In this document: one piece after another, positions 30,574 through 47,105 of the stretch
Numbering within the stretch: position 1 is the first letter of the stretch
How the letters are laid out: every line of letters starts with the position of its first letter
Translations under genes and position numbers: made by a program
The notes under the pieces: generated by a model
The model's database searches: none
What the model was told of the DNA's origin: nothing
The model's input: only the letters and a program-made list of their open reading frames with translations
Source of the DNA: Marinomonas sp. UCMA 3892
GTDB taxonomy: Bacteria; Pseudomonadota; Gammaproteobacteria; Pseudomonadales; Marinomonadaceae
NCBI RefSeq assembly: GCF_012726345.1
Contig: NZ_PTXN01000005.1
Location: 124,001 to 188,000 of the forward strand
Direction: 5' to 3'
Length of the DNA: 64,000 bases

Positions 30574-30598
30574 CACTGGTTCCACTTTATAGAGCTCA

Positions 30599-31310: not shown

Positions 31311-31380
31311 TGGACTCCCCCAACTCCTAGAGCTGGGTTAATATTTTGGCTCTCACACACAAAATATTATGGAGTCCAAC

Positions 31381-32418
31381 ATGCACAATATAATCACAGG
31401 TGTTGATTTAGCAAAAGAAGAAATTCAAGTTTGCGTCTCTAAACGCAACAAGGTGCAGTCTAATCAGGCAATGACACCGTCACAATTTACTTCTTGGTTG
31501 GCTTCCTCAAAATCTATGACGATTGTATTTGAGGCATGCAGCACATCAAATTATTGGAAGCAATCTGCATTGAAATATGGGCATGACGCTCAAATTATTT
31601 CTGCCAAACTGGTTGCCACGGTGAGACAAAATCAAAAAACGGATAAAAATGATGCTTTGGCTGTTGCTCAGGCAGCTCAACTTTTAGACGTTTCATTTAT
31701 CAACGGTAAATCAAAAGAACAGCAAGAGCTGCAAACCTTAGTTCGATTACGAGAACTTGCTGTAAAACATAAAGTTGCCATGCAAAATCAAATTAAGTCA
31801 TTGTTATTAGAGTTTAATATTAGGGTATCACCCAGCCAAGGTGGCTTAAACGGCGTCGTTCAATCGGTTCTGGAAGATGCTGAAAATGGCTTTTCGATGG
31901 TTTTTCGCCAAGCATTACATATGGCGTGGCAACAACTTTTGCTCTGTATTGAATCGATACAGCAGTATGATTTGTGCCTAGAAAAAGCAGCAAACCAACA
32001 TCCAGCTTGTAAAGCGTTACAAGCTATCGAAGGTGTTGGCCCATTGAACGCCATTAATCTTTATATTGCTCTAGGCTGTGGGGAAATGGGGACCTTTAAT
32101 AAAGGTCGAGATGCTTCTGCTTGTATTGGCTTAACCCCCATCCAACATTCTTCAGGGGGAAAAGTGAAATTGGGCTCTATCGGTAAGCATGTTAAAAACA
32201 GTAGCATTCGAAGTTGCTTAGTCAGTGGTGCGATGGCGGCGGTTAATCAAGCGACTAAACGTCCTGCAAAAACGAAAAAAGACTTATGGATACAGCAAAT
32301 GGTTGAGCGCAAAGGAAAACGGTGTGCTGCTGTCGCGTTAGCCAACAAAACGGTACGAACGGCCTTTGCTATGTTGGCAAATGGTACAGAATATAAAGCA
32401 GAGCTTTTGGCTGTTTAA
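31381..32418 (+). CDS. IS110-family (IS1111 group) DEDD transposase
   Basis: The ATG at 31381 has GGAG 6 bases upstream, giving about 345 residues. The RuvC-like DEDD catalytic set is visible: Asp in ITGVDLAKEE, Glu in TIVFEACSTSNYW, and two Asp in NQKTDKNDALAV. The C-terminal transposase-20 domain (AIEGVGPLNAINLY, ACIGLTPIQHSSGGK, LGSIGKHVKNSSIRSCLV) contains the catalytic-Ser-type region. The gene is intact, so the element may still be active. Confidence 0.92.
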   Translation: MHNIITGVDLAKEEIQVCVSKRNKVQSNQAMTPSQFTSWLASSKSMTIVFEACSTSNYWKQSALKYGHDAQIISAKLVATVRQNQKTDKNDALAVAQAAQLLDVSFINGKSKEQQELQTLVRLRELAVKHKVAMQNQIKSLLLEFNIRVSPSQGGLNGVVQSVLEDAENGFSMVFRQALHMAWQQLLLCIESIQQYDLCLEKAANQHPACKALQAIEGVGPLNAINLYIALGCGEMGTFNKGRDASACIGLTPIQHSSGGKVKLGSIGKHVKNSSIRSCLVSGAMAAVNQATKRPAKTKKDLWIQQMVERKGKRCAAVALANKTVRTAFAMLANGTEYKAELLAV

Positions 32419-32621
32419 AAGAGTTGTTAAACAACAATAATGCTCAATAAAAGATGAAAATCAGCTTGTTTAGTCAGTGCTTCGCTTAGAGCCGTTAGCT
32501 CGTCCATGAGATTTGACAACAAGTTCGCGTAAATATCATAGAGCCTGGGATAGCTTCCCCAATTAGAGCTCGTACATAAGCACGCATTTATTCTTTAATT
32601 GATCTTTAATGTTGTTGACAA
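32419..32621 (+). ncRNA. Right-end noncoding region of the IS1111-type element, candidate guide RNA
   Basis: This 203-base stretch between the transposase stop and the right inverted repeat contains no ORF. In IS1111-group elements the equivalent region encodes a structured RNA (bridge or seeker RNA) that pairs with donor and target DNA and directs insertion. I have not folded it; the call rests on position and length only. Confidence 0.4.
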
Positions 32622-32660
32622 GGGGGAGTCCACATAAGCGAAGCGTGATGTGCCTAAACA

Positions 32661-32685
32661 TGTTTAATTTTTATCTGATCCTAAT
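32661..32685 (+). repeat. REP-like motif, copy 1
   Basis: Contains the block TTTAATTTT-[CT]-ATCTGA-[CT]-CCTAAT, which recurs at 32930-32954 with two differences. It shares TCTGACCCTA with the ends of the nearby REP-associated transposase unit. Confidence 0.6.
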
Positions 32686-32689
32686 TGTT

Positions 32690-32920
32690 AAAAATTGATT
32701 CTTTAAAGGTTTCCTTTCACCTTGGTGACTATAGCAAGTAGTCAAACAATTACGGTCGTTGCTTTCGCACATCATTCTAGAAAACCCGGCTACTGGCTCG
32801 ATAGACTCACCCCATAACCATGGCGAGAGCGTGAGCGTTATTTAAAGCAGTCAAACTTTATACTATTTCTCAATTTTGAAAATAAATGTATTAGCTTCTT
32901 TAAAGACAGCGCCAGCAAAT
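32690..32920 (+). repeat. 230-bp direct repeat, copy 1
   Basis: This block is near-identical to 36499-36728, with scattered substitutions and one single-base indel. It holds the last 40 codons of a ParE/RelE-type toxin gene and its 3' flank. Confidence 0.85.
32692..32817 (+). pseudogene. ParE/RelE-type toxin, 3' fragment (copy 1)
   Basis: The frame reads KLIL, a stop, then RFPFTLV and AFAHHSRKPGYWLDRLTP. The last motif (AHHxRKPGYWxxR) is the conserved C-terminus of ParE/RelE ribosome- or gyrase-targeting toxins. The 5' two-thirds are missing, and an in-frame TAA (32704-32706) interrupts what is left. Confidence 0.75.
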
Positions 32921-32929
32921 TGAGTAATG

Positions 32930-32954
32930 TGTTTAATTTTCATCTGACCCTAAT
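32930..32954 (+). repeat. REP-like motif, copy 2
   Basis: Second copy of the motif at 32661-32685, containing CATCTGACCCTAAT. The two lie in direct orientation on either side of the toxin fragment. Confidence 0.6.
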
Positions 32955-33007
32955 ATCCCAACATAAAACCCGTGAACAGGTTTTGTTGGATGGAGAGTAA
33001 AAGCGTA

Positions 33008-33036
33008 GGGCACCATGAGCGGAGTGTGATGCGCCG
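33008..33036. repeat. Imperfect intergenic palindrome
   Basis: GGGCACCATGAGCGG and TGTGATGCGCC form an imperfect dyad of the REP type common between genes in gammaproteobacteria. A decayed relative lies near 32630-32660. Confidence 0.45.
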
Positions 33037-33116
33037 TTGGGCATTATGGTCAGACAAATAAGTTTAATTATTATCTGGGGTAATTACTCCAAAAACTTCA
33101 AGGCTCACTTTTGATT

Positions 33117-33256
33117 TATAACGCCGCGTTAAACGGCAGACAAAGTTGTGATGCTTTTGTGCGATAATTTGCGAAGCAAATGCACAAAAGTAGCGCAGCT
33201 TTGGCTGTCCAGTGTAGGGCCGAAGGCCCGGAACGAGTTTGAACGCTTTGTTATGT
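33117..33256 (-). other. Integron attC-like recombination site 1 (140 bp)
   Basis: On the minus strand the site starts ACATAACAAAGCG and ends GCGGCGTTATAA, matching the outer core boxes and their neighbours in chromosomal-integron attC sites. Between them are dyads such as GGGCCTTCGGCCC. The stop codon of the adjacent small gene lies inside the first core box, as is typical of gene cassettes. Confidence 0.7.
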
Positions 33257-33493
33257 GTTTTTGACATAGCCGAAAACCCAAGACAGTACGAATATAACCA
33301 AAAACACTGGTAGAAAAGCAAACGCACCCAACGAAAACCAATAGCCCCAATACACTACGCCCTCACAATGTATTTCACATTGGGAGTTGTGCTGCCAAGA
33401 TACATACATTATTAAAGAGCCAGCAATAAGCCCAAATAGTGCACTGACAATGAGACGAGACTTATTTGCAGCTATGTGACTCTTTATACTCAT
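33251..33493 (-). CDS. Small two-TM membrane protein in an integron-type cassette
   Basis: An 80-residue protein with two membrane helices (about 14-32 and 50-72) separated by a short loop carrying two Cys (NSQCEIHCEG). I do not recognise a family. The gene ends inside an attC-like site, so it is a cassette gene. Its start codon abuts the inverted end of the transposase unit inserted upstream, and no ribosome site remains. It may be silent. Confidence 0.6.
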   Translation of the reverse strand: MSIKSHIAANKSRLIVSALFGLIAGSLIMYVSWQHNSQCEIHCEGVVYWGYWFSLGAFAFLPVFLVIFVLSWVFGYVKNT

Positions 33494-34307
33494 GAATCAA
33501 TAGGGTCAGAGTGTTTGATTTTTGGCCTGCTCACGAAATTTCTCCGATTTTCTGTCACCACCACGATTAGCTGGCTCTATTCGTCTATTAACCTGAGTTT
33601 CAATTTCTCGCTTAAAACGCTCACTACCCAAAACCCATGCTTTATTCGTTGCCGTTCTAATCAACTCTATAGTGTTGTCTGATAGATAGTCATCAAACAA
33701 TCTAACATACCGTTGAAGCCTTTTAGTATTGCTTTCACCTAATTTTATGTATCGTTCATGTGGCGTGAGCAACTCGATAACTTTCCCAACTCCATTAGCT
33801 TGATAACTCGACCAAGGGTATTCTGCTGGATGCTCTACCATGCCTGCTCTCACAGGATTCATCTCAATATAACGCATTACCGTTAATAAATAATTATCAC
33901 TATCGACAATGGTTGATCTATACCGTCCTTCCCATAAAGAGCCTGTTCGTTGATAGTTTTTATTGATGTATAAAACATAATAACGCCCTATCGATTGCAT
34001 CATCTTACTGATGGCACCCTCATGTTCGGTCGAAACTAATAAATGAACATGATTCGTCATCAAGACATACGCATGAACGCTTACTTCATATTGCTTGGAG
34101 AAGTCTTTGAGTTTAGCTAAATAAACGGTGTAATCTTCATCAGAAAAGAAAATAGCTTGACGATTGTTACCCCGTTGAATGAGATGCTGGGGACAACCTT
34201 TGATAAACAATCTTGGTAAACGTGCCATAAGCAATCCTTGCTAGAATAAATATCGAATTAATTTAATCCCTTTATTTAAAATCAAACACTCTGACCCTAT
34301 TGATTCA
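33493..34307 (-). mobile_element. REP-associated tyrosine transposase unit with 30-bp inverted ends
   Basis: The ends 33493-33522 and 34278-34307 are perfect inverted repeats of 30 bases, beginning TGAATCAATAGGGTCAGAG and running inward to TGTTTGATTTT. They enclose one HUH transposase gene, whose stop codon lies inside the left repeat. The whole unit is 815 bp. A 66-bp miniature derivative lies at 36280-36345. Confidence 0.8.
33506..34228 (-). CDS. REP-associated (HUH/Y1) transposase
   Basis: From the ATG at 34228, preceded by AAGGA, the product is 240 residues. It contains the HUH metal site in MTNHVHLLVS and the downstream tyrosine segment SIGRYYVLYINKNYQRTGSLWEGRY, then MRYIEMNPVRAGMV, all characteristic of the Y1 transposases associated with REP sequences (RAYT, TnpA_REP). 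Such enzymes nick single-stranded hairpin ends and mobilise small palindromic elements. The gene appears intact and its ends match the miniature element nearby. Confidence 0.9.
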   Translation of the reverse strand: MARLPRLFIKGCPQHLIQRGNNRQAIFFSDEDYTVYLAKLKDFSKQYEVSVHAYVLMTNHVHLLVSTEHEGAISKMMQSIGRYYVLYINKNYQRTGSLWEGRYRSTIVDSDNYLLTVMRYIEMNPVRAGMVEHPAEYPWSSYQANGVGKVIELLTPHERYIKLGESNTKRLQRYVRLFDDYLSDNTIELIRTATNKAWVLGSERFKREIETQVNRRIEPANRGGDRKSEKFREQAKNQTL

Positions 34308-34343
34308 GGCTTTAGCTGATTTCATCGCAGGCACTTTAGCGGC

Positions 34344-35234
34344 TTACTCATGGAGAATGCTGGACTTTAGCCGTTTGATATCTCGCCCCGGTGGAACGTT
34401 AAACATTCTTGCATATTCGCGTGTGAACTGCGAAATACTGCTATAACCAACAGCTGAAGCTGCGTGAGAGATAGTAACCCCTTTTGATAGCATCTGATTT
34501 CTGGCGTGGATGAGGCGGAGCTGTTTCTGAAACTGCAACGGGGTTAGCGTGGTGAATGTTCTAAAATGTTTATGGAATACAGACACACTCATGCCTGCTG
34601 TGCTGGCAAGTTCTCTGATTTTAATTGGGTGCATAAAGTCACGACGCAATATTGCTATCGCTCGATTGATTCGCGCTGCATGACTGTCTACCACGCCAAG
34701 GGCTCTGACCGCTTCCCCGTGCTCACTTCTAAGTAACCAGTAGTGCAACTCACGTAGAAGACCTTTGCCGAGGATGCTCAATGCTTCGCGTTCGTTGAAC
34801 AGCCTTACTAGTCGGCATGCGGTATCTGCCACATCGCTAAGGATAGGTTCCACGTGAATACTGTTTGCGGTGTCGTGAATTTCAACCGGCATCGCTGCCT
34901 GAAGTTCACGCAATGTCTCAATATCCAACTCCAGCACCAGTGAGTAGTACGGCGCGCCAGCGCTGGCTTTTGTTATCTGGCTAACGGTTGGAATATCCGC
35001 GGATATAATCATCGCTTCACCGGGGCCATATTCAAAATTGTTCAAACCGGTTGTGACGCGTTTGCACCCTTGAAGTAGTATGGCAACAAGTGGCTTGGAT
35101 ATCGCCACCTGTAATTCTCCCGGGCGCAAGGAGCGTACAATAGTTAGCCCAGCTACAGGCGAGGCAGCAACACCGTTATGATCTGCGTGAATATCGGCAT
35201 AACGTCGGCAAAGATTCAGAAGTTCGTTATTCAT
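34344..35234 (-). CDS. AraC-family transcriptional regulator
   Basis: A 296-residue protein with the AraC_N-type ligand domain (about 20-170: LRPGELQVAISKPLVAILLQGCKRV, FEYGPGEAMIISADIPTVSQI) and two C-terminal helix-turn-helices (IKIRELASTAGMSVSVFHKHF and ISHAASAVGYSSISQFTREYARMF). It is divergent from an SDR oxidoreductase gene 166 bases away. The regulator-next-to-SDR layout is common and suggests it controls that gene. The pair looks richer in GC than the surrounding AT-rich island, which suggests a separate origin. Confidence 0.9.
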   Translation of the reverse strand: MNNELLNLCRRYADIHADHNGVAASPVAGLTIVRSLRPGELQVAISKPLVAILLQGCKRVTTGLNNFEYGPGEAMIISADIPTVSQITKASAGAPYYSLVLELDIETLRELQAAMPVEIHDTANSIHVEPILSDVADTACRLVRLFNEREALSILGKGLLRELHYWLLRSEHGEAVRALGVVDSHAARINRAIAILRRDFMHPIKIRELASTAGMSVSVFHKHFRTFTTLTPLQFQKQLRLIHARNQMLSKGVTISHAASAVGYSSISQFTREYARMFNVPPGRDIKRLKSSILHE

Positions 35235-35400
35235 GTCACTTTTTTAGGCTAGAATTTTCAGCGCTATTTTGGCTTAATTCGCTATTTAAAACATCATAAA
35301 AATACTATTAGGCAAAAAATGCCTAATTTCAGGCAACGTAGCTCTCTAAGAATTCCCTACTATATGTGGACCGAAAATCAGTAACAGTAAGGAATATATA

Positions 35401-36156
35401 ATGAGCAAAATTACTCTCGTAACCGGTGCTAATCGTGGCCTGGGTCGCAATACCGCTATCTCCATCGCTGAACGTGGCGGGGACGTTATCGTGGCCTACA
35501 GAGGCAACGAAGCCCAGGCTAAAGAGGTTGTGACTAAAGTTCAGTCTCTGGGACGCAAAGCAGTTGCAGTGCAGCTGGACCTGGGCGACAGCGCAAGTTT
35601 CCCAGCATTTGCTAACGTGCTGCGCACCCAGCTTTCAGAAGTCTGGGGTCGCGACACATTCGACCATTTGGTAAATAATGCTGGCCATGGCGAGTTTGCT
35701 ATGCTGGCAGATACCACGGAAACACAATTTGACGGATTGTTTGATGTCCATGTTAAAGGGGTATTTTTTCTGGTGCAAACGCTTCTGCCGTTGCTGGCCA
35801 ATGACGGACGAATTATTAATTTCTCTTCAGGGCTGACACGCGTTTCTTATCCTGGGTTTTCAGCTTATTCTGCAGCAAAAGCGGCTGTAGAGATTCTGAG
35901 TATTTATATGGCCCGAGAACTTGGGCCACGTGGCATCACTGTCAATACCGTGGCTCCCGGTGCCATCGAAACCGATTTCGGTGGGGGGCTTGTACGGGAC
36001 AACAGAGAAGTGAATGCTCAGTTTGCTGATATGACTGCGCTTGGCCGTGTCGGGGTTCCTGATGATATTGGCCCGATGGTAGCTAGCCTGTTGCGCGAGG
36101 ATAATCGCTGGGTCACCGCGCAACGCATTGAAGTGTCAGGCGGCCAGACAATCTAA
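35401..36156 (+). CDS. SDR-family NAD(P)-dependent oxidoreductase
   Basis: A classical 251-residue short-chain dehydrogenase: cofactor motif TGANRGLG, the NNAG motif (HLVNNAGHG), catalytic Ser in INFSSG, and SAYSAAKAAVE with the Tyr-x-x-x-Lys pair, ending RIEVSGGQTI. NADP preference is plausible but not proven. The substrate is unknown. AAGGA lies upstream of the ATG. It is likely induced through the divergent AraC protein, as such pairs often respond to reactive electrophiles. Confidence 0.9.
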   Translation: MSKITLVTGANRGLGRNTAISIAERGGDVIVAYRGNEAQAKEVVTKVQSLGRKAVAVQLDLGDSASFPAFANVLRTQLSEVWGRDTFDHLVNNAGHGEFAMLADTTETQFDGLFDVHVKGVFFLVQTLLPLLANDGRIINFSSGLTRVSYPGFSAYSAAKAAVEILSIYMARELGPRGITVNTVAPGAIETDFGGGLVRDNREVNAQFADMTALGRVGVPDDIGPMVASLLREDNRWVTAQRIEVSGGQTI

Positions 36157-36181
36157 TAGTGACAACCATCCCGTCTTAGAA

Positions 36182-36216
36182 AAGAATACGTCATTCACTT
36201 ATGGCGTATTCTTATT
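36182..36216 (+). terminator. Terminator after the SDR gene
   Basis: A 13-bp stem AAGAATACGTCAT / ATGGCGTATTCTT (one G-T pair) with a 6-base loop, followed by a weak AT-rich tail. Confidence 0.7.
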
Positions 36217-36279
36217 AACTATGAGAAATAACAGTGAGACCTACCTGCCACAGAATATGACGACGTTGATGAAATCTGT

Positions 36280-36345
36280 ATCAATAGGGTCAGAGTGTTT
36301 GATTTCGTGAGCAGGCCAAAAATCAAACACTCTGACCCTATTGAT
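36280..36345. mobile_element. 66-bp miniature element (REPIN/MITE) derived from the HUH transposase unit
   Basis: It consists of the two inverted ends of the 33493-34307 unit joined by CGTGAGCAGGCC, which is the unit's own left-end inner sequence. Compared with the parent, everything between two AAAT microhomologies has been deleted. It can fold into one long hairpin and has no coding capacity, so any movement would need the transposase in trans. It interrupts the toxin remnant that follows. Confidence 0.85.
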
Positions 36346-36350
36346 TTGAA

Positions 36351-36626
36351 TTGACCGAAGCCGCTGCTTGGTAAGAACTTGAGATACCCGGTCTGGGAGA
36401 GCAGCTCATTACTAGTTTTGAGCAGGCTACGGCAAAGCTCAGCAAACTAAACCCACCGCTCGTACCGGTCATTGGTAAAGCTGCCAAGTTTGGAGCCAAA
36501 AAATTGATTCTTCAAAGGTTTCCTTTCTCCTTGGTGACTACAGCAAGTAGTCAAACAATTACGGTCGTTGCTTTCGCCCATCATTCTAGAAAACCCGGCT
36601 ACTGGCACGATAGACTCACCCCGTAA
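36351..36626 (+). pseudogene. ParE/RelE-type toxin gene, 5'-truncated (copy 2)
   Basis: The frame reads TEAAAW, a TAA stop in place of the expected Tyr codon, then ELEIPGLGEQLITSFEQATAKL and on to RFPFSLV and AFAHHSRKPGYWHDRLTP. This is the body of a ParE/RelE-type toxin lacking its N-terminus, which ends at the miniature element. No antitoxin gene is seen. The 3' half is duplicated at 32692-32817. Confidence 0.8.
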
Positions 36627-36728
36627 CCATGGCGAGAGAGTGAGCGTTTTTCAAACAGTCAAACTTTATACTATTTCTCAATTTTGAAAATAAATGTATT
36701 AGCTTCTTTAAAGACAGCGCTAGTAAAT
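36499..36728 (+). repeat. 230-bp direct repeat, copy 2
   Basis: Partner of 32690-32920. The two copies flank the AraC/SDR pair, the transposase unit and the first cassette in direct orientation, so recombination between them would delete about 3.8 kb. Confidence 0.85.
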
Positions 36729-36759
36729 GGTATCGCAATAAGTAATGAATTTAGTGAAT

Positions 36760-36800
36760 TTAGGGCCAGATGAAAGATACTATTTTTCATCTGGCCCTAA
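36760..36800. repeat. 16-bp perfect inverted repeat of the TCTGRCCCTAA type
   Basis: TTAGGGCCAGATGAAA (36760-36775) and its complement (36785-36800) form a hairpin with a 9-base loop. The arm resembles the REP-like motif at 32930-32954. It lies just downstream of the minus-strand membrane-protein gene and could also serve as its terminator. Confidence 0.65.
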
Positions 36801-36809
36801 TATCCACGA

Positions 36810-38492
36810 TTATGTGATGTTTTCTTTTATTTTCAATGAATTAGATATTTTTTGAAGATTCTCAAAATTGCCTTTTGAGAAGGGGTTGTCATATGGTTCT
36901 ATTCTATCGATAGAATTAGGATCCGTAAGGATGTTGTTCACAATTTCAAGTTGCTTTAGTATCTTATTTTTTAGCTCTTGCGTTTCTTCTTTGGAAATTT
37001 CTAGTTCTGCCTTGTCTTCTTCGATTTTAATAGCTATAGCTGATGTTTTGGACTCAAGTTCTCTAATGTCATTCCACTCTTTATTCTCTATTGTTTCATC
37101 TGATTTTTCTTTTAAAGGGATCTTATTTGCTATGTTGTGTAGAGCCCCTAATAAGGATTGATATCTAGTAATTGATTTTTCAAGATCTATATATTTTTCC
37201 GCTCTTTTAACAAGTTTAGCTAGGTCCTTACTGTTAATCCATTCAGGCTTCTCTCCTTTTAGAAAATGTTCGGCCTCGTAACTTGATGAAATATCGTCAA
37301 AATTAGTGAGTTGGATTTTATATGCCAGGTCATTTAAGCTATTTTGTTGTTCCTTCACCAAAATTGACAAATCGACTTCTCTTAAAAATACTATTGGTTC
37401 TCTTTCTCGAAGCATTTCTCGGTATATAATTTCATAGTATCTTTTTAATAAATATTCTTTGTAATTCGCACAATGCATAGGTGGCATACCATCGGGCATG
37501 CCAGTGTTTAATTCTTTGATAATGTCTTCAGAGCTTATGTAAAACCGCTCATTAAGTTTTTTTGAAACGATGAAACTTTTACTTATGTCCTCAGTAACTT
37601 CTTTCCATTGATTATCAGGGAAATTGACGGGTTTTTTTATTGTGAAATATTTTGAAAGGTTATCAAGATGGCTGCTTGTCTTAATGGAATATGATAAGAA
37701 ATCTACCAAGCATTTCGTAGTTTTCTCTTTTATTAGCTCCCATTCATCAGCAGATAAATAGTCTGGCTTATCTTGATTAAGGATTTTATAACTTTCGAGT
37801 TCTTCAATATCAGTTGAGTGGAAGTACTCAACTTTGCTCATTTTTTCTATATACTTTCTTCGAATGGAGTTCCATTTTTCCTGTGACACATAGAATGGTT
37901 TTGATTTGTTAAGATATTCATAAAAACCTGTATAACTCCCACGAGATTCAAGACGGTCAATTGCCATTGAGCGCACTTGAATAACCAAAAATGCGAAATA
38001 AAAAAATATTATAGCTAGAAGGCTAAAATAGCCAACTTTGCTTGCAGTGGAAACTACATCGCTTGATAGTGCTTCTGTCCCCTTACCTTTATTGTGTGTG
38101 ATTTCAATAAGGCTTTTGGTTAACCCCATTCCGTTTGTTTTAAATATGTAGGAGAATTGAGCGCCAGGTGGAAGAGACGGATATATAGCTTCAAAATGTC
38201 CATTTGAATAGTGCTCCGCAACGTTGTCAGAAACTGAGTTTTTAAGAATATCGTATTCTACAATTTCTCCCGTAATTTTTATTTGAATTTTTTCTGCAGG
38301 AATGTTTCCGTTGTTTTTTACAACTAGTTGTTGAACTGTTTCAGCTGTAGAGGATTCGATATATTTTGTGGGAATCTTTTCTGAAATTGTGTAACGCAGA
38401 TCAACGAATTCCTTATTTAAATTGAAAGCAAAGTACGTAATGATCAAGCCGATTGCTAATGGAATAAGCAACATGCTAATTATTTGTTTCAT
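36810..38492 (-). CDS. 560-residue membrane protein with repeated K-P...W motif (cassette gene, unknown function)
   Basis: I do not recognise the family. The ATG follows AAGGAA, and the gene begins about 30 bases after an attC-like site, so it occupies the next cassette position. Layout: membrane helix (5-25); an extracytoplasmic region of about 125 residues that looks beta-rich; a second helix (about 150-170); then a 390-residue cytoplasmic part. Four related segments recur in it: SKPFYVSQEKW, DKPDYLSADEW, KKPVNFPDNQW and EKPEWINSKDL. Residues about 430-520 look coiled-coil. The gene is AT-rich. No attC-like site is seen after its stop; a REP-like hairpin lies there instead. Confidence 0.7.
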   Translation of the reverse strand: MKQIISMLLIPLAIGLIITYFAFNLNKEFVDLRYTISEKIPTKYIESSTAETVQQLVVKNNGNIPAEKIQIKITGEIVEYDILKNSVSDNVAEHYSNGHFEAIYPSLPPGAQFSYIFKTNGMGLTKSLIEITHNKGKGTEALSSDVVSTASKVGYFSLLAIIFFYFAFLVIQVRSMAIDRLESRGSYTGFYEYLNKSKPFYVSQEKWNSIRRKYIEKMSKVEYFHSTDIEELESYKILNQDKPDYLSADEWELIKEKTTKCLVDFLSYSIKTSSHLDNLSKYFTIKKPVNFPDNQWKEVTEDISKSFIVSKKLNERFYISSEDIIKELNTGMPDGMPPMHCANYKEYLLKRYYEIIYREMLREREPIVFLREVDLSILVKEQQNSLNDLAYKIQLTNFDDISSSYEAEHFLKGEKPEWINSKDLAKLVKRAEKYIDLEKSITRYQSLLGALHNIANKIPLKEKSDETIENKEWNDIRELESKTSAIAIKIEEDKAELEISKEETQELKNKILKQLEIVNNILTDPNSIDRIEPYDNPFSKGNFENLQKISNSLKIKENIT

Positions 38493-38519
38493 TCAAGTAA
38501 TTCCTTTATTTTTTCGACC

Positions 38520-38590
38520 ACATAGCGCCGCGCTCTGCGGCAAGTTTATAGCGCCGCGAAAACTTGTCCGACAGCTGCGCTTTGTTAGGC
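38520..38590 (-). other. Integron attC-like recombination site 2 (71 bp)
   Basis: On the minus strand it opens with a perfect core box GCCTAAC followed by AAAGCGCAGCTG and closes with GCGGCGCTATGT. Internal complementary arms CAAGTTT and AAACTTG give the usual folded structure. It begins 10 bases after the stop of the PIN-domain gene. Confidence 0.78.
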
Positions 38591-38600
38591 ATTTTGGGTT

Positions 38601-39443
38601 CTAGAACAACTTTTTCCAAAGAGTCTCAAGTCTCGTACCACTTACACCTTTGCCAACATTATCTAACCCGCGAACCATTACATACAAACCGCCCAATATT
38701 TGGATTCCTTCAGTGACTCCTAAACCGGAATAGCTAAATGTCGGAAAGAAGACATAATAGGACATGATTAAACCGACGCAGAGTTCGAAGGCACCGTACG
38801 AAAGACGGAAATTTTCTCTATACCAGAATAACGCCAAGCCCAGAATAGGCAATCCGACCATCGTTCCCCAAACAGTGATTGTGGATACCAACAGGTCTAT
38901 ATTCGAGTAAACAGTGTTTCCGGCTACAGAAGCGAGCACACCAAGAAAAAAGCTTATAAAGATGTAACGTCTCTGAGATGAAACAACTTTCTCTGCTTTG
39001 TCCTCGATGTCTTTATTTAAAGAATCCCCTTTACTCGCACCAATAAATTCAGAGCCGGTAATAGACATAATATTGCGACTAGATAGAAAATAGGCCAAAG
39101 CTTTATCGTTTGTTACTACGCACGGAGTATCAATCCTTTGCTCCTCGGCATAAGCGATCGCTATCCGAGCAATGTCAAAATCAGCTCCGCTTAGACGCTG
39201 GGCATTTCTATCAGATTGGATAAGATCGTTTTTTAGCTTTTCAGGCGCATCAGCAATTTTTACACCTGTAGGAACAGAAGACGTGACTAGCTCCGCGATA
39301 TCAGCCCATTTGCTCCCTTTCCCCCTTTGAGAGAGCTCTTCCATTACAGCTCTTGGAATAACAAGTTTCCGATTGCCAGCTCTAGACAATATTTGTGGGT
39401 GCTGAAGCAAAACACTTGTATCGATAATGTATCTAGTTGGCAT
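38601..39443 (-). CDS. PIN-domain nuclease fused to a C-terminal membrane domain (cassette gene)
   Basis: The 280-residue protein starts 14 bases inside its cassette, with GGAAGG before the ATG. Residues 1-140 or so form a PIN domain with acidic residues in RYIIDTSVLL, AVMEEL, GADFDIARIAIAYA and VVTNDKALA, the layout of Mg-dependent ribonucleases. Residues about 165-265 hold three to four membrane helices. PIN toxins are normally soluble, so this is a membrane-tethered form. No antitoxin gene is adjacent. Its attC-like sites upstream (39457-39526) and downstream (38520-38590) define a cassette of about 937 bp. A role in defence or stress is possible but unproven. Confidence 0.78.
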   Translation of the reverse strand: MPTRYIIDTSVLLQHPQILSRAGNRKLVIPRAVMEELSQRGKGSKWADIAELVTSSVPTGVKIADAPEKLKNDLIQSDRNAQRLSGADFDIARIAIAYAEEQRIDTPCVVTNDKALAYFLSSRNIMSITGSEFIGASKGDSLNKDIEDKAEKVVSSQRRYIFISFFLGVLASVAGNTVYSNIDLLVSTITVWGTMVGLPILGLALFWYRENFRLSYGAFELCVGLIMSYYVFFPTFSYSGLGVTEGIQILGGLYVMVRGLDNVGKGVSGTRLETLWKKLF

Positions 39444-39456
39444 AAACCTTCCTGAT

Positions 39457-39526
39457 GCCTAACAATTAAGGGTTATACAGCCGCGTAGCTGCGACTATAA
39501 CCCACTGTTGAACTGCTGCGTTGTCT
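39457..39526 (-). other. Integron attC-like recombination site 3 (70 bp)
   Basis: On the minus strand the right core box is GTTAGGC, a perfect match, and the left end reads AGACAACGCAG. Internal arms GGGTTATA and TATAACCC pair. It would belong to a cassette further upstream, but no minus-strand gene is visible there, so that cassette has decayed or been lost. Confidence 0.7.
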
Positions 39527-39873
39527 ATATATGGGATTTGCTTTTTTTATCATCTGACTTCCCTGTTGGTTTTTGGTGTATTACTGTCATTTTCTGGTTG
39601 CTGGCAGCTTTAATACGTTATCTTTACTTTGTTTCTTGTCTCTTTTTACTTTGGCTTAACGCAGTTGGCAAGCCTTATTTCTTCGCTTCTTTGATCTGAC
39701 TCACCGTTTTTTTGAAAAACAGTGGCGCCTTCTTTACGAATTAAAAGCGTTTGAATGGAACATGAATTGCGCGTCGGGCTAAAGCCGCGACCTACAGTGA
39801 AAGCTTCGCTTTCAGCGGCGGATTACGGTCGTGCCTCCCTTATCACGCCCTACGAAAGAGCTGATTCAGCCAA

Positions 39874-40423
39874 GAAGTCAGTTCGACGCGACGAAGTTGC
39901 GCGACTCTATGGAGTTTCAGAGCCAGTTAAAAATATCTTCTCTCAATCCTGTAAAAACAATCTATGCCTTACGATGTAAATCGTCTTGCCAAACTTAATA
40001 ATAAACAAAGTGAATCAGACGTTTGGGCGATAGCCCGATAAAGAGACCTTTTGGTTACTTTTGCGGATCTGGGCAAAAGTTACCCGCCCAGCAGGGCGGA
40101 ATAAAAGGTTGGGAATGCAAAGTGTTTGAATGGAACCAAAAGTACGAAATAGCGGTATCACCGATGAAGTCAGTTCGACGCGACGAAGTTGCGCGACCCT
40201 ATGGCGTTTCAGAGTCCGTTAAAAATACCCTTCCTTAAGTCTGCAAAACAATCTATGCCTTACGATAAAAATCGTCATGCTAAACCAATCTTAAAAAAGT
40301 GAATGAGACGTTTGGGCGATAGCCCGACAAAGCGACCTTTTGGTTACTTTTGTGTCGCTAGACAAAAGTTACCCGCCCAGCAGGGCGGAATAAAGGTTGG
40401 GAATGCAAAGTGTTTGAATGGAA
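39874..40423 (+). repeat. Two tandem copies of a 260-bp intergenic repeat
   Basis: Copy A (39874-40135) and copy B (40166-40423) both run from GAAGTCAGTTCGACGCGACG to AAAGTGTTTGAATGGAA and include GTTTGGGCGATAGCCCGA and CCCGCCCAGCAGGGCGGAATA. A third copy's end may be present near 39746. Each contains inverted repeats, such as the CTTTTGGTTACTTTTG / CAAAAGTTACCCG pair. No coding sense is apparent. Confidence 0.8.
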
Positions 40424-40452
40424 GCTGCTGTGTCTAGATTTGTTTTGGGGTT

Positions 40453-40476
40453 GTTGGGCTAAAGCCCAACCTACAG
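40453..40476. repeat. Small palindromic repeat, GTTGGGCTaaAGCCCAAC
   Basis: A perfect 8-bp stem with a 2-base centre, of the GTAGGTTGGGC type found between genes in many gammaproteobacteria. A related degenerate copy is near 39773-39798. Confidence 0.6.
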
Positions 40477-40493
40477 GAAAGGGGAAGGGATTC

Positions 40494-40520
40494 AAAAAAA
40501 AGCCCCGCAGAGCGGGGCTA
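40494..40520 (-). terminator. Terminator on the ppsA side of the island
   Basis: A stem AGCCCCGC / GCGGGGCT with a 3-base loop is bordered by seven A on the left, which become the T tract on the minus strand. It lies about 150 bases past the ppsA stop. Confidence 0.8.
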
Positions 40521-40668
40521 TAAAACTAGGGAGTGACTACGATAAGGTCACGTGCTGCTTTTACACAGCATTCTGATCTGGTGCTGCATTAAAAACACAA
40601 CACCAAACGCAGACTGTTTTCCCGATACGCCATGTCTGGTATTACTGCGACGTAACGGGAATATTTCT

Positions 40669-43065
40669 TTAAATGGCTTTGTTGTTCAATTCGGTATTTT
40701 TCAATACTTCATCAAGGTGTAGCCAAGTTTCAATTACAGTGTCTGGGTTAAGAGACATGCTTTCGATGCCTTGCGCTACGAGCCAGTCGGCGAAGTCGGC
40801 GTGGTCGGATGGGCCTTGGCCACAGATGCCGACGTATTTGCCTTGTTCGCGACAGGCGGTGATCGCCATTTTTAGCAGTTTTTTGACGGCTGGATTACGT
40901 TCGTCGAATTTGTCGGCGATCAACCCAGAGTCGCGGTCAAGTCCGAGTGTTAGCTGAGTTAAGTCGTTCGAGCCGATGGAGAAGCCATCGAAGTATTCTA
41001 GGAACTCGTCAGCCAGTAGGGCGTTAGACGGTAGTTCGCACATCATGATGACTTTCAGGCCGTTTTGACCGCGAGCCAAGCCTTGTTCCGCAAGCAGTTC
41101 GGTAACTTGTTGTGCTTCTTCCAAGGTACGAACAAATGGGATCATGATTTGTACGTTGGTTAAGCCCATTTCATTACGAACTCGGCGGATGGCTTCACAT
41201 TCTAGAGCGAAGCAATCGCGGAACGAGGCGTCGATGTAACGCGCGGCGCCACGGAAGCCAAGCATTGGGTTTTCTTCGTCTGGTTCAAACAACGGACCAC
41301 CAACAAGGTTGTGGTATTCGTTTGATTTGAAGTCGGACAAGCGCACGATGACTGGTTTTTTAGAGAAAGAGCAAGCCAGCGTTGCGACGCCTTCGACCAG
41401 TTTGTCGACGTAGAATTCCACTGGGCTGTTGTAGCCGGCGATGCGGTGGTTGATTTCTTCTTGCAGCGCTGGTGTCATTTCTGCGTAGTTCAGCAAGGCT
41501 TTCGGGTGAATGCCGATCATGCGGTTGATGATGAATTCTAATCGCGCCAAGCCAATACCTGCGTTTGGTAGCATGGCAAAGTCGAAGGCGCGGTTTGGGT
41601 TGCCCACGTTCATCATGATTTTTACTGGCAATTCTGGCATGTTGCCGACTTCAGAGGTGATGATGTCGAATGGCAGTTCGCCTTGGTAAACAAAGCCCAT
41701 GTCGCCTTGCGAGCAAGAGACTGTGACGATTTGGCCATCTTTCAATACATCTGTTGCGTCGCCACAACCAACGACTGCTGGAATACCTAGTTCACGTGCG
41801 ATGATCGCCGCGTGACAAGTACGACCGCCACGGTTGGTCACAATCGCAGAAGCACGCTTCATGATAGGTTCCCAATCTGGATCGGTAATGTCGGTAACCA
41901 GAACGTCGCCCGGTTGGATGCGATCCATTTCGGTAATAGAGGACAATACTTTCACGGCGCCTGTGCCGATTTTGTGACCAATGGCGCGGCCGGTGATCAT
42001 GACCTGAGAGGTTTTCTTTAGATTGTAACGTTCCATGCTTTGGGCATTGGCTTGGCTACGAACGGTTTCTGGACGCGCTTGAACAATATAGATTTTGCCG
42101 TCGATGCCGTCTTTCGCCCACTCAATGTCCATAGGACGTTTGTAGTGTTTTTCAATGATGCAGGCTTGGCGAGCAAGATCTTGAATCTCGTCGTTAGTCA
42201 GTGCAAAACGGTTTTGGTCATCCAAAGCGACTGGAACGATTTTAACGAATTCTTCGCTGCCCGCTTCGGCGTATTCCATTTTTTGTGCTTTGCTGCCTAG
42301 GCTCTTACGAACAACAGAAGGGCGGTTTGCAGCCAGTGTTGGTTTGTGTACGTAGTATTCATCAGGGTTGACGGTGCCTTGTACAACCATTTCACCAAGG
42401 CCATAAGCGGCAGTTATGAAAACCACTTCGTCAAAGCCAGATTCCGTGTCTAGAGTGAACAGCACGCCAGAAGCGCCGATGTCACTGCGTACCATTTTTT
42501 GAATACCTGCGGACAAAGACACTCCTTGGTGTTCAAAGCCTTGGTGAACGCGGTAAGAAATCGCACGGTCGTTAAATAGGGAAGCAAAAACGCGTTTGAT
42601 AGAGGCTTTGATGTCTGCCAAGCCTTTCACGTTTAGGAAAGTTTCTTGTTGGCCTGCAAAAGACGCATCTGGCAAATCTTCTGCTGTAGCAGAAGAGCGC
42701 ACTGCAAATGATGTATCGTCTGCGTTGTCGTCACAAAGTGTTGCGAAAGCTGCTTCGATTTCTTGGTCAAATTCTGCTGAGAAAGTGGCGTCTTCAATCC
42801 ATTGGCGAATCTTTACGCCAGTTTCAGCAAGGGCGTGAACATCGTCCACATCCAATGCGTCTAGTGCTTGATGGATTTTTTCGTCAAGGCCGCTTTCTGT
42901 GATGAAGCTTTGATAAGCATAGGAAGTAGTTGCGAAACCGTTAGGTACTTGAATACCAAGGTCTGTCAGGTTGGAAATCATTTCACCTAAAGAGGCGTTT
43001 TTCCCGCCTACTTCACCGACATCTTCCATATGAAGATCTTTAAACCACTTAATAAATTTGCTCAC
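40669..43065 (-). CDS. ppsA: Phosphoenolpyruvate synthase
   Basis: The GTG at 43065 is preceded by GGAG at a 6-base spacing, giving 798 residues; an upstream in-frame TTG is less likely. It aligns with E. coli PpsA throughout: [12 protein letters not shown] and [24 protein letters not shown] in the ATP-grasp part, the catalytic His region [21 protein letters not shown], and the C-terminal PEP-binding barrel ([50 protein letters not shown]). It converts pyruvate, ATP and water to PEP, AMP and phosphate for gluconeogenesis. It is divergent from its regulator gene ppsR. Confidence 0.96.
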
Positions 43066-43304
43066 AAGAGACTCCAATTATTTTTTTCTTATTAAAAGAA
43101 TTTGGCTGGTTGGCCAAAAGATGGCTGGTTTGCCAAGTGGACTTCAGACGCTCATCAAATTGCTGTGTGCTCTTGTCAAAGCGCTTGGTCTGAGTTCATT
43201 GTATGTAGGGTAGTTGCTTTGAATAAAATCGATTATTCGATGTAGTTTTATTTCAATCGAAAAAACGAATGTCGTTAGATAACAACAAAAATGGGAAAAA
43301 ACGC

Positions 43305-44108
43305 ATGAAAGTGTATTTTGTATCAGACGGGACAGCGATCACGGCTGAGGTATTTGGGTCAGCAATGTTGTCGTTTTTTGATGTGGCGGTAGAGACCAAA
43401 AGTGTGCCTTTCTTGGGCACCAAAGATCGGGCAGAAGGCTTGAAGCAACAGATCAATTTGGAAGTGCAGCAAGGTGTTGCTTTGCTGGTATTTTATACTA
43501 TTTCCGATGTGGCAATCCGCGAGATTATCGATTCTTGTAATTGCCATTGTTACAATTTGTTTGGTGATTTGTTGTCGCCGATTGAGCAAGCCTTAGGTGT
43601 CAAGGCTCAGCCGACAGCACAAAAAGCTCATGGTATGAAAGAGGGCGTTTACGATGGTCGAATAGACGCTATTAACTATGCTTTGGCGAATGATGACGGG
43701 GCTTCAGTGAAGAATTTTGCCGAGGCAGATATTATCTTGCTGGGAGTGTCTCGCTCTGGCAAAACGCCAACCAGTTTGTATTTGGCGATGCAGTACGGTA
43801 TCAAGGCAGCAAACTATCCGATCACTGAAGATGATTTTTCCACGCCCGGTTTGCCTAAGGTGTTAAAGGATCATAAGAAGAAGCTGTTTGGTTTAACCAT
43901 AGAAGCTCAGCGCTTACATGAGATTCGTACTGGTCGAATGGCGGCAAGTAAGTATGCCTCGGCTCGTCAATGTCGCTATGAAGTAGACGAAGTGGAGTCT
44001 TTATATCGCCAAGAACGCATTCCTTTTTTGAATTCGACAAAACTGTCTGTGGAAGAAATTTCCACCAAAGTGATGGCTGAAATGAATTTGGTGCGTCATA
44101 GGCAATAA
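43305..44108 (+). CDS. ppsR: PEP synthase regulatory protein (bifunctional kinase/pyrophosphorylase)
   Basis: From the ATG at 43305, with GGGA eight bases upstream, the product is 267 residues and begins MKVYFVSDGTAITAE. The nucleotide-binding GVSRSGKTPTSLYLAMQYG and the C-terminal QCRYEVDEVESLYRQERIPFLNSTKLSVEEI are diagnostic of the DUF299 family. It uses ADP to phosphorylate and so inactivate PEP synthase, and phosphate to restore it. A start 36 bases earlier is possible. Divergence from ppsA is the standard arrangement. Confidence 0.93.
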   Translation: MKVYFVSDGTAITAEVFGSAMLSFFDVAVETKSVPFLGTKDRAEGLKQQINLEVQQGVALLVFYTISDVAIREIIDSCNCHCYNLFGDLLSPIEQALGVKAQPTAQKAHGMKEGVYDGRIDAINYALANDDGASVKNFAEADIILLGVSRSGKTPTSLYLAMQYGIKAANYPITEDDFSTPGLPKVLKDHKKKLFGLTIEAQRLHEIRTGRMAASKYASARQCRYEVDEVESLYRQERIPFLNSTKLSVEEISTKVMAEMNLVRHRQ

Positions 44109-44528
44109 AAATGCTTGGCGGAATGATCAGATAATTCGATGGGTTCATTGTTTTTGCTTGAAATTTAGACAATTAAGTAATGAAAATATTTCGCTTAGGC
44201 TAAAATGGCATTACAAATGCTTGTAAAAGACAGACAAATATCGAGTCATAAGGGCTATTTGTTGTGTAATTACCAAATTAACTCGAAGAGAGTGTGCAGA
44301 TAATGCTAAGAGCTACGCTAACTTCGAGAGTATTTGGTGAATATGCTCTATAATGATGATTAATTGAGCGCGACAGTGACTCGGCAAAAGTGGCTTATTA
44401 GAAGTGACTTGTCAGAAATGGCTTATCAGAAGTGATAGCGAGTACTGCAAATGTTCTAAATAGTGAGATGTTCATATTTCTATTTTATAAAAGGGCGTCT
44501 TATTGAAAAAACCAAGGATAAAAATACA
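44109..44528 (+). promoter_or_regulatory. Promoter region of rnr with a degenerate 14-bp tandem repeat
   Basis: This 420-base gap holds no convincing gene. Near 44386-44440 a 14-base unit like AAGTGGCTTATCAG is repeated three to four times with changes. The rest is AT-rich leader sequence. Confidence 0.45.
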
Positions 44529-47105
44529 TTGAGTAATAAAAAAATTAACGATCCACACATGCAGCGAGAAGCGTCTAAGTACGATAACCCCGTACCAAGC
44601 CGTGAATTCATTCTAGAGTTTCTTGCCACCCAAAATAAAAGCATGGGTCATTTAGATTTATGCAAAGAGTTTTCGCTGACTGGCGAAGACGAAATCGAAG
44701 CCCTCCGTCGTCGTCTCATCGCTATGTGTCGAGACAATCAAATGACCAGCAACCAAAATGACGAATACTCGCCGATTTTAGAAAGTGACCTAATTGAAGG
44801 TTACGTTCAAGGCAATAAAGAAGGTCATGGTTTCTTGTTGCGTCAAAGTGATGACGATATTTTTCTATCTGCCCGTCAAATGCAGAACGTGATGGATGGC
44901 GATAAAGTAAAAGTACGTCTTTCTGGACGTAGTGTTAAAGGTCGCTTAGATGGTGTGGTTGTTGAAGTCATAGAGCGAAAGCACAGCCAATTGGTTGGCC
45001 GCTACTATGAAGAAAGCCGCACTGCTTTCGTTACACCAGAAAATCCACGTATCGCGCAAGACATTCTGATTACCACTGACTCTGGTTTAACACCAAAACA
45101 TGGTCAATATGTATTAGCAGAAATCGTGTCTTATGCCGAGCGCGGCAAACCAGCCCAAGGCTTGGTGAAAAAAATCCTTGGCGACTTTATGGCGCCAGGT
45201 GTGGAAATTGAAGTGGCGATGCATCGTTATGAAATTCCTAACGAGTGGCCAGCAGCGGTTGAAAAGCAAATTAAAAACTTCAGTACCGAAGTGGCGGAAG
45301 AAGATAAAGCTCACCGTGTTGATTTACGCGATACGCCATTTGTTACTATTGATGGTGAAGACGCGCGTGATTTTGATGATGCCGTATATTGTGAAAAAAC
45401 GCCGGGTGGCTGGAAGTTATTTGTTGCCATTGCTGATGTCTCTCATTATGTGAAAAAAGACACAGCGTTAGATGAAGAAGCTATCGTACGTGGTAACTCT
45501 GTCTATTTCCCTGGTCGCGTTATTCCTATGTTGCCGGAAGTATTGTCGAACGGCTTGTGTTCACTTAATCCAGACGTAGATCGTTTGGCGATGGTAGCCG
45601 AAGTATCCTTGACTACGAAAGGCAAGATGCGCGGCTTCAAGTTTTATGAAGGGATTATTCGTTCTCATGCTCGTTTAACCTACAGCAAAGTCGCTAAGAT
45701 GATCGATGACGAGCCAGAAGAGCAAGGTATTGAGCTGCGTGAGCGTTATGCGTCTATTGTGTCGCACATTGACGACTTAAAAGGTTTGTATCATGTATTA
45801 AAAGGCGCTCGTGATGAACGTGGTGCGATGGAGTTTGATACGATCGAAACCCGCATGGTATTCGACGAGAATTCTAAGATTGAACACATTATTCCGGTTG
45901 AACGTAATGACGCTCATAAACTGATTGAAGAATGTATGTTGTGTGCCAACGTGGCGGCGGCTGAATTGTTGATTAGTGCAGATTTACCTGCATTGTATCG
46001 TGTCCATGAAGGACCAAAAGACGATCGCTTGTTAACCTTACGTACTTACCTTGGTTTGCTGGGTTTAGAATTAACGGGTGGCACAAAACCTACCCCAGCA
46101 GATTACGCGGCATTGTCTGAAAGCATTAAAGAGCGTGCAGACGCTCGTAGTATTCAAACAATGATGCTGCGTTCTATGTCGCAGGCAGTATATCAAGCGG
46201 ATAACTTGGGCCACTTTGGTTTGAATTATGAAGCTTATACTCACTTTACGTCGCCAATTCGTCGTTACCCAGATTTGTTGGTTCATCGCGCGATTCGTTA
46301 TTTGATTCGTGGTGAAGGCCGCCCAACTGTGCGTCAGGCGCATCGTGTGGCAGGCAGCCCAGAACTAAAAGAACGTAAAATCTACGGTTACACCCATGCG
46401 GATATGGATGGTTTAGGGGATTCTTGTTCTTTGACTGAACGCCGCGCTGACGAAGCGACTCGTGATGTAGAAGCGTGGTTGAAATGCCAGTATGTTGAAC
46501 AGCACTTGGGCGAACCGTTTGACGGTGTTGTTACCGCAGTGACTTCATTTGGTTTGTTTGTTGAGCTGCAAGGTTTGTTTGTTGATGGTTTGGTGCATAT
46601 TTCAGGGCTTGGGCAAGATTATTTTGTTCATGACATGGAGCATCAGGCAATTATTGGTGAGCGAACTGGTCGAGTATTCCGCCTTGGCGATACGTTGAAA
46701 GTTCGAGTGTCTAATGTGAACTTGGAGCAACGCAAGATTGATTTGAGTTTGGATGAAAGTGCTGCGCGTCAACCACGTAAGAAAGTGGAGCGCAATGACA
46801 TGTCTGAACTTGAAATGCAATTAGCTCAGTTGCCGCCAATTGAATTGGGTGGTCGTCCTAAGCCGAAGTCTGCTGAAAAAATAGAAGGTGACAAGTCGAA
46901 AGACGCTAAGTCATCGAAAGATGGTAAAGAGTCGGATGGTAAGGCGAAGAAAAAACGTCGTTCGCCTGCGTCTAAGGGTAAACGTATCAGACAGAAAAAG
47001 TCGGGTACTGTTTCGGCAAATGGTAAGCCAACGGCAGCGGCTAAAAAACCAAAAAAGCCTAAGAAGCCCAAAAAGAGCAATGCTAAGCCAAAAGCAAAAG
47101 ACTGA
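44529..47105 (+). CDS. rnr: Ribonuclease R
   Basis: The TTG at 44529, with AAGGA ten bases upstream, starts MSNKKINDPHMQREASKYDN, close to the usual RNase R N-terminus; longer frames begin in the leader. The product is 858 residues: a helix-turn-helix region, cold-shock domains, the catalytic RNB domain with TIDGEDARDFDDAVYCEK (Mg-binding Asp residues) and HFTSPIRRYPDLLVHRAI, an S1 domain (GVVTAVTSFGLFVELQGLFVDGLVH), and a highly basic Lys-rich tail. It degrades structured RNA 3' to 5'. It is followed 88 bases later by rlmB, a common pairing. Confidence 0.95.
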   Translation: MSNKKINDPHMQREASKYDNPVPSREFILEFLATQNKSMGHLDLCKEFSLTGEDEIEALRRRLIAMCRDNQMTSNQNDEYSPILESDLIEGYVQGNKEGHGFLLRQSDDDIFLSARQMQNVMDGDKVKVRLSGRSVKGRLDGVVVEVIERKHSQLVGRYYEESRTAFVTPENPRIAQDILITTDSGLTPKHGQYVLAEIVSYAERGKPAQGLVKKILGDFMAPGVEIEVAMHRYEIPNEWPAAVEKQIKNFSTEVAEEDKAHRVDLRDTPFVTIDGEDARDFDDAVYCEKTPGGWKLFVAIADVSHYVKKDTALDEEAIVRGNSVYFPGRVIPMLPEVLSNGLCSLNPDVDRLAMVAEVSLTTKGKMRGFKFYEGIIRSHARLTYSKVAKMIDDEPEEQGIELRERYASIVSHIDDLKGLYHVLKGARDERGAMEFDTIETRMVFDENSKIEHIIPVERNDAHKLIEECMLCANVAAAELLISADLPALYRVHEGPKDDRLLTLRTYLGLLGLELTGGTKPTPADYAALSESIKERADARSIQTMMLRSMSQAVYQADNLGHFGLNYEAYTHFTSPIRRYPDLLVHRAIRYLIRGEGRPTVRQAHRVAGSPELKERKIYGYTHADMDGLGDSCSLTERRADEATRDVEAWLKCQYVEQHLGEPFDGVVTAVTSFGLFVELQGLFVDGLVHISGLGQDYFVHDMEHQAIIGERTGRVFRLGDTLKVRVSNVNLEQRKIDLSLDESAARQPRKKVERNDMSELEMQLAQLPPIELGGRPKPKSAEKIEGDKSKDAKSSKDGKESDGKAKKKRRSPASKGKRIRQKKSGTVSANGKPTAAAKKPKKPKKPKKSNAKPKAKD

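Follow-up and report, generated by a model that had tools for sequence, protein, structure and literature searches.

The available text on SNIPE (PD-lambda-1) describes a nuclease bound to the membrane that cleaves phage DNA as it is injected, and indicates that membrane location can make a nuclease both safe and phage-specific (PMC13190303). Two systems from DefensePredictor, DS-3 and DS-5, require catalytic PIN residues for defence, and DS-3 is a single gene without an antitoxin, according to the portion available of the report on them (PMC13092281). Integron-borne defence cassettes are also in print (Kieffer 2025 and Darracq 2025, as cited in the passages available from PMC13092281 and PMC12409362). 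RNases have been placed in similar settings: Anantharaman et al. (2013), in the sections available, propose that integron cassettes carry RNases for dormancy and that there are HEPN RNases associated with the membrane and dependent on a stimulus (PMC3710099).

Here we analysed a gene for a PIN-membrane protein located in a 64-kb stretch of DNA, hereafter the window. Among the matches listed in the literature searched, the available text of the sources held no description of this protein. In the excerpted text of PMC13092281, Kieffer is one of four sources given for a PIN domain or HipA kinase that has been validated, so the PIN-membrane cassette or a similar one may already be described.

A PIN domain joined to a membrane module

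The cassette encodes a single protein, in which a PIN-type domain that keeps its acidic residues is joined to a conserved membrane module with three clear helices and one weaker helix. As shown in Table 1, the gene and its flanking sites are all on the minus strand. In the protein, the PIN domain (residues 1-135) is followed by a linker (136-158), the membrane helices and a short tail. Residues 5-117 aligned with positions 1-118 of the 132 in the Pfam profile PIN_4 (PF13638; E 4e-11, 43.8 bits against a cut-off of 21.9), and a match to PIN_9 was sub-threshold (Pfam, E <= 1). The AF2 models were middling (mean pLDDT 62.7 and 66.7), and at that confidence the structural matches support a PIN fold; the top matches include SMG6, HARP RNase P and Nob1, and VapC structures are also present. 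A search of the PDB by sequence with the single protein gave no match at E <= 1. The profile gave three, at E 1-2.1, which were taken as chance. Labelling the protein an RNase goes by inference; PIN-fold enzymes are able to cut DNA too.

Table 1. Positions of the features discussed (in the window unless a locus is named)
Feature	Position	Strand	Basis or remarks
PIN-membrane gene, 280 aa	38601..39443	(-)	ORF, Pfam PIN_4, hydropathy, AF2 helices, omega
PIN domain region, residues 1-130, with D8, E36, D88, D90, D113	39054..39443	(-)	
Membrane module, residues 154-280	38604..38984	(-)	Alignments
Putative cassette between two G|TTRRRY cut points, 937 bp	38526..39462	(-)	Inferred from junctions
attC of preceding cassette; R'' GTTCAAC, R' GTTAGGC	39457..39513	(-)	Boundary GTTAGGCATCAGGAAGG common to L014 and L015
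attC of PIN cassette; R'' GCCTAAC intact, R' degenerate (GCTATGT)	38520..38590	(-)	Alignment to L015 attC
Neighbouring 560-aa protein	36810..38492	(-)	33% GC, no family (Pfam)
SIR2-domain protein beside E. coli copy	L012:2785-3693		SIR2_2 2.8e-10; ThsA-like PADLOC matches
166-aa module-only protein	L075:1453-1953 (= L076:8615-9115)		Beside IS-type transposase
Viral-contig relative, one ORF	L079:4386-5384		
Viral-contig relative, two ORFs	L078:1238-2239		

Hydropathy peaks were found at about residues 160-178, 188-206, 218-236 and 239-257, and AF2 places helices, with low to middling confidence, at 144-180, 189-212, 216-232 and 243-267. The 19-residue hydropathy maximum of the fourth helix was 1.22 in the window copy and 0.90-1.57 across six copies, falling below the threshold of 1.1 in two of the six. 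Because this helix is weak, the three to four helices of the preliminary description are a fair count. No Pfam family matched the membrane module above its cut-off; the core motif of the module is R...YG..E ... G..Y..VRG.DN...G.

Full-length relatives define six distinct loci: the window, Escherichia coli (L012), a Sulfuricurvum plasmid, Pseudomonas (L014), Paraglaciecola (L015) and Gallionella (L016). The Pseudomonas and Paraglaciecola proteins, from two other genera, were 85-87% identical to that of the window. A 76% relative lies in a P2-like prophage of one of 5,426 E. coli genomes (megablast), and a 46% relative on a plasmid of Sulfuricurvum kujiense, one of 72,556 plasmid records. The full-length query also matched one viral contig. 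This contig and the E. coli genome carry the same allele (99.9% identity, with flanks identical at 238/240 and 1469/1470 positions), and the two were therefore counted once. Three of the loci came from a pattern scan of a species-genome collection, a kind of scan that misses relatives. No match was found in the 389 other genomes of the order sample, in the 397 others of the phylum sample (which overlaps it) or, for the whole protein, in the phage collection.

The preliminary description had proposed a comparison of the PIN active site, and this revealed no loss of acidic residues: D8, E36, D90 and D113 are invariant in all six full-length copies. From known PIN motifs, we take these four to be the catalytic set. 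The best-conserved stretch of the protein is residues 189-267 (helices 2-4), with a mean pairwise identity of 0.76 and 39 of 79 positions invariant, compared to 0.64 and 46 of 135 for the PIN domain; helix 1 (0.54) and the linker (0.48) were weakly conserved. Omega for six pairs of four copies was 0.035-0.144 overall and 0.027-0.146 for the PIN domain, and purifying selection was detected on both halves of the protein. Values of dS between the window and L014 (1.9) or L015 (1.7) were high; together with the low omega they mark the gene as old and constrained, in unrelated hosts. Since helices 2-4 are more conserved than the PIN domain, the module is probably more than an anchor.

The module also occurs apart from an intact PIN domain. 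A whole-protein profile matched a 166-aa protein over residues 133-269 only (E 3.9e-9), in one of 397 other genomes of a Pseudomonas genus sample. The GajB (4.5e-180) and GajA (6.1e-217) genes of Gabija lie 1.6 kb from it, with the transposase between. Its other side is flanked by a HEPN match resembling Swt1, which is weak and below cut-off (E 0.0014). The module motif is also present in a Rhizobium etli plasmid protein of 151 aa, whose first match was weak (E 0.01). In two IMG/VR contigs (L078 and L079) the module follows a PIN-like part that lacks D8 and has no Pfam PIN match. The L079 protein has Thr at position 8 and aligns with E36, D90 and D113, the last within a gapped stretch; its gene lies next to a D12 methylase and to a Phage_GPD match that was near the threshold. 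The first ORF of L078 lacks D8 and, as its alignment to L079 shows, E36 as well. With the module as query, all matches in the phage collection were to virion RNA polymerase (E 0.3), and the class sample yielded three matches (E 0.004-0.007) with internal stops; all were taken as chance. The strong constraint on the module and its occurrence without an intact PIN domain make a passive anchor unlikely, and the PIN-like relatives without D8 suggest that the module may do more than tether. Nuclease activity may not be its general output, given that both viral-contig relatives lack D8.

These arrangements bear on the main rival to a nuclease reading, in which the membrane module would be the effector, opening or disrupting the membrane on infection, and the PIN-like domain would sense or regulate by binding RNA or a phage product and be catalytic in some members only. 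The conservation of helices 2-4 fits this alternative, as do the module-only proteins, the viral-contig forms without D8 and three residues at the end of helix 4 (R258, D261 and N262) that are invariant in all eight aligned modules. However, a mere sensor would not need the acidic residues kept in six full-length copies, or the constraint seen in the omega of the PIN domain, and even L079 has residues aligned with the other three acidic positions. We consider an effector role for the module unlikely.

Cassette boundaries and attC sites

Judged from its boundaries, the PIN-membrane gene is an integron cassette. On the gene strand, GTTAGGC starts 20 bases 5' of the start codon and GCCTAAC starts 10 bases 3' of the stop, and the two attC sites share one orientation, which is the correct one (ORF, then attC). 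This exact complementary R'/R'' pair flanks the gene at four of the six distinct loci (window, Pseudomonas, Paraglaciecola and Gallionella); neither box is present at the E. coli or Sulfuricurvum copy. Such a pair arose by chance in 86 of 200,000 trials with random 840-base stretches of the window.

Both attC-like sites of the preliminary description, and the cassette carriage read from them, were borne out. The upstream site was the sole match, on both strands of the window, to a filter that combined RYYYAAC...GTTRRRY with folding; this filter is insensitive, having missed all 12 real attC sites in L014. The downstream site, with its degenerate R', aligned with the Paraglaciecola attC at a score of 56, compared to 15.5 for the best of 2000 mononucleotide shuffles. 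Folding energy gave no evidence for either site (z about -1). Regular expressions with a strict inverted repeat or a fold filter recovered no L014 site, and homology and box pairs were therefore used for attC calls. In the window from 34000 to 46000, Rfam gave no match at gathering scores. The preceding cassette has no remaining minus-strand ORF of at least 60 aa.

Around the 85-87% identical copies of Pseudomonas and Paraglaciecola, the boundary GTTAGGCATCAGGAAGG is found again together with the R'' box GCCTAAC; the Gallionella copy (59% identical) has only the two boxes in common with the window. In the 24 bases before the ATG, 22 are identical to the window in L014 and 21 in L015, and in the 16 bases preceding that stretch only 3 are identical in each. 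This sharp break is that expected at a G|TTRRRY cut. The same 24 bases showed 6 identities in L016, 10 in L012 and 8 in L013, and in these three there was no similarity outside the box. A putative decayed attC behind the E. coli copy scored 18 against the L015 attC, which none of 2000 shuffles reached, and 13 against the window attC, which 3 of 2000 reached. The score rose to 20.5 with slightly shifted windows, and one unrelated place in L012 also reached 18; the site is suggestive only.

Genomic contexts and the state of the cassette in its host

In distant bacteria, relatives of the gene are found on cassettes, in a prophage and on a plasmid, that is, in mobile rather than the housekeeping contexts that the preliminary description had named as evidence against its reading. 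In E. coli the copy is bordered by the tail fibre assembly gene (G) and by FI of the P2-like prophage, and the flanking proteins are 90% identical to P2 G (90 residues compared) and 98% to P2 FI. A SIR2 gene is located 556 bases downstream. In P2 itself the interval between G and FI holds fun(Z), which is annotated as blocking T5 growth when cloned. According to Vassallo et al., in the text available, P2-like phages have a second locus enriched in defence genes, where fun and three of the systems from that study are found (PMC9519451).

In Pseudomonas sp. R-28-1W-6 (L014) the gene is within an array of 12 attC sites, as found by pattern search, and the integron integrase (504 bits) is on another contig than the array. 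AbiV (HEPN, 1.1e-44) was one of ten cassette proteins scanned in the array. Neighbours in L015 and L016 were toxin-antitoxin genes, unknowns and a patatin, and the near neighbours on the Sulfuricurvum plasmid were metabolic or hypothetical. A reverse transcriptase ORF, group II intron-like by eye, lies upstream of the Paraglaciecola cassette (L015:1546-2835). As the preliminary description had observed for the window, no antitoxin accompanies the gene: among 13 neighbour proteins at six loci, the best mutual match was E 0.29, and no antitoxin recurred.

The prophage, array and Gabija contexts lend circumstantial support to the defence role put forward in the preliminary description, with fun(Z), SIR2, AbiV and Gabija contributing one instance each, without statistics; the role itself is one that the protein may have. 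Against it, few of the neighbours are defence genes, and PADLOC-DB gave no family for the window protein (E <= 1) or for L013 (E <= 0.01). The contexts also bear on a second alternative, that the protein is a membrane-tethered RNase which would tune RNA turnover under stress, as a general adaptive cassette gene comparable to the integron HEPN RNases. RNA-processing PIN proteins are prominent among the structural matches of the model (SMG6, HARP RNase P and Nob1), and the proposals of Anantharaman et al. on integron-borne and membrane-associated RNases, as far as the text available goes, point the same way (PMC3710099). Yet carriage on a prophage and a plasmid and rarity in the genome samples fit conflict better than housekeeping, and we regard a stress function as distinctly unlikely.

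The sedentary integron setting of the preliminary description did not hold for this genome, which has no integron integrase (TIGR02249) above cut-off. Of the 48 genomes in the genus sample, this one among them, 18 had an integrase above cut-off, as did two of the three genomes of L014-L016. A search of the own genome for copies of the attC gave one full match and six others of 14-22 bases (E 0.1-4.6). With no integrase above cut-off, the cassette is stranded. Cassettes can be stranded without an integrase, as in CALINs, and the missing integrase therefore lowers the case for "in an integron" and not that for "a cassette". No promoter match was found on the strand of the gene in the 357 bases upstream, and together with the missing integrase this makes expression in the host doubtful. 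Among congener integrons, single attC-like candidates were present in L030, L034 and L041 and weaker filter matches in L035, L037 and L038; with these insensitive filters no attC array was found in 14 stretches beside 14 of the 20 integrase matches listed.

An empty insertion site was sought in the 11-12 kb downstream of ppsA in four relatives. Of the window stretch compared (30001-41200), only the part from 39747 onwards had matches there, in repeats and the ppsA end, and no insertion point emerged. The repeats, at 39747-40423 between the cassette and ppsA, were also seen downstream of ppsA in L067, L068 and partly L069. In L023, similar repeats follow an integrase (by eye). The neighbouring 560-aa protein had no match in the 46 other genomes of the genus sample and none in PADLOC at E <= 1, and by eye its gene is followed by no attC. 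A palindrome of the type TTAGGGCCAGATGAAA...TTTCATCTGGCCCTAA at 36760-36800, after this gene, is a probable terminator (by eye).

That the cassette has some other function, or none in this strain, where it would be silent and stranded, is consistent with the missing integrase and promoter match, the degenerate R' and the lack of a second full attC copy in the genome. The ORF is nevertheless intact and constrained between species, and we think this alternative very improbable. Least probable of all is a VapC-like type II toxin whose antitoxin was lost and which persists as a selfish or addiction cassette: the structural matches do include VapC, but no partner recurs at the six loci, and the lone gene is under purifying selection and fused to a conserved membrane module.

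Proposed mode of action and comparison with known systems

We give a probability of about one half to the reading that the gene is a mobile, one-gene anti-phage candidate in which a membrane sensor or positioning module is coupled to a PIN nuclease, with defence, substrate and trigger as its conjectural parts. Both ends of the protein are predicted to be cytoplasmic, from the basic residues that its linker, middle loop and tail contain. The module would keep the PIN domain quiet at the inner membrane and would respond there to infection, whether to phage injection, a phage membrane protein or lost membrane integrity. The PIN domain, released or locally concentrated, would then cut nucleic acid, which may be cellular RNA or the phage genome as it enters, and the infection would fail or abort. 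Since no antitoxin is present, the protein must inhibit itself or be kept inactive by where it sits. The most economical reading, and the most likely one, is a device for sensing or positioning at the inner membrane to which a silent PIN domain is coupled.

A broader and tentative version of this proposal, which we hold to be improbable, takes the YG..E/VRGLDN module as an infection sensor with different outputs (an active PIN domain, a PIN-like domain without D8, or the module alone) in bacteria and phages. The PIN form would cut at phage entry, as an independent SNIPE-like invention, and integron cassettes would have fed the second defence locus of P2-like phages. If the anti-phage reading is correct, one small gene connects three reservoirs of immunity in bacteria: integron cassettes, plasmids and, in P2-like prophages, the second defence locus. 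It would also provide a second architecture of membrane-bound nuclease in phage defence and define a compact membrane module that has gone without a Pfam match above cut-off.

VapC of VapBC is soluble and controlled by an antitoxin. The PIN-membrane protein shares with it the PIN fold and acidic residues; unlike VapC, it has no adjacent antitoxin and is fused to a membrane module. The closest likeness in mode of action is to SNIPE. As the passages available describe that system, it is a single protein with an inner-membrane anchor, a cytoplasmic nuclease and no second gene (PMC13190303), and the same would apply to the PIN-membrane protein. In the account available, SNIPE consists of an N-terminal helix, DUF4041 and GIY-YIG, with little conservation in the membrane region (PMC13190303). 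In contrast, the window protein has a PIN nuclease domain and no DUF4041 or GIY-YIG (Pfam, E <= 1), and its C-terminal helices 2-4 are its best-conserved part. It may work like SNIPE, by analogy, without being a member of that system.

As with Kiwa (KwaA/KwaB), membrane-embedded sensing of phage would be coupled to a part that binds nucleic acid. Kiwa comprises two genes, however, and KwaB binds DNA without cleaving it, as stated in the portion available (PMC12904381); neither the window protein nor the 560-aa neighbour had a PADLOC match (E <= 1), and no KwaA and KwaB pair was found in them. Like DS-3 in the available text, the PIN-membrane gene stands alone without an antitoxin. In DS-3 the PIN domain is split between the two ends of the protein and DS-5 needs a second protein, a comparison made by description, not sequence, from the excerpts of PMC13092281. 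With the integron-borne defence cassettes cited there the gene has in common that a small function, which here may be defence, is carried as an attC cassette. The PIN-membrane gene extends a known class, that of single-gene, mobile nuclease defence candidates.
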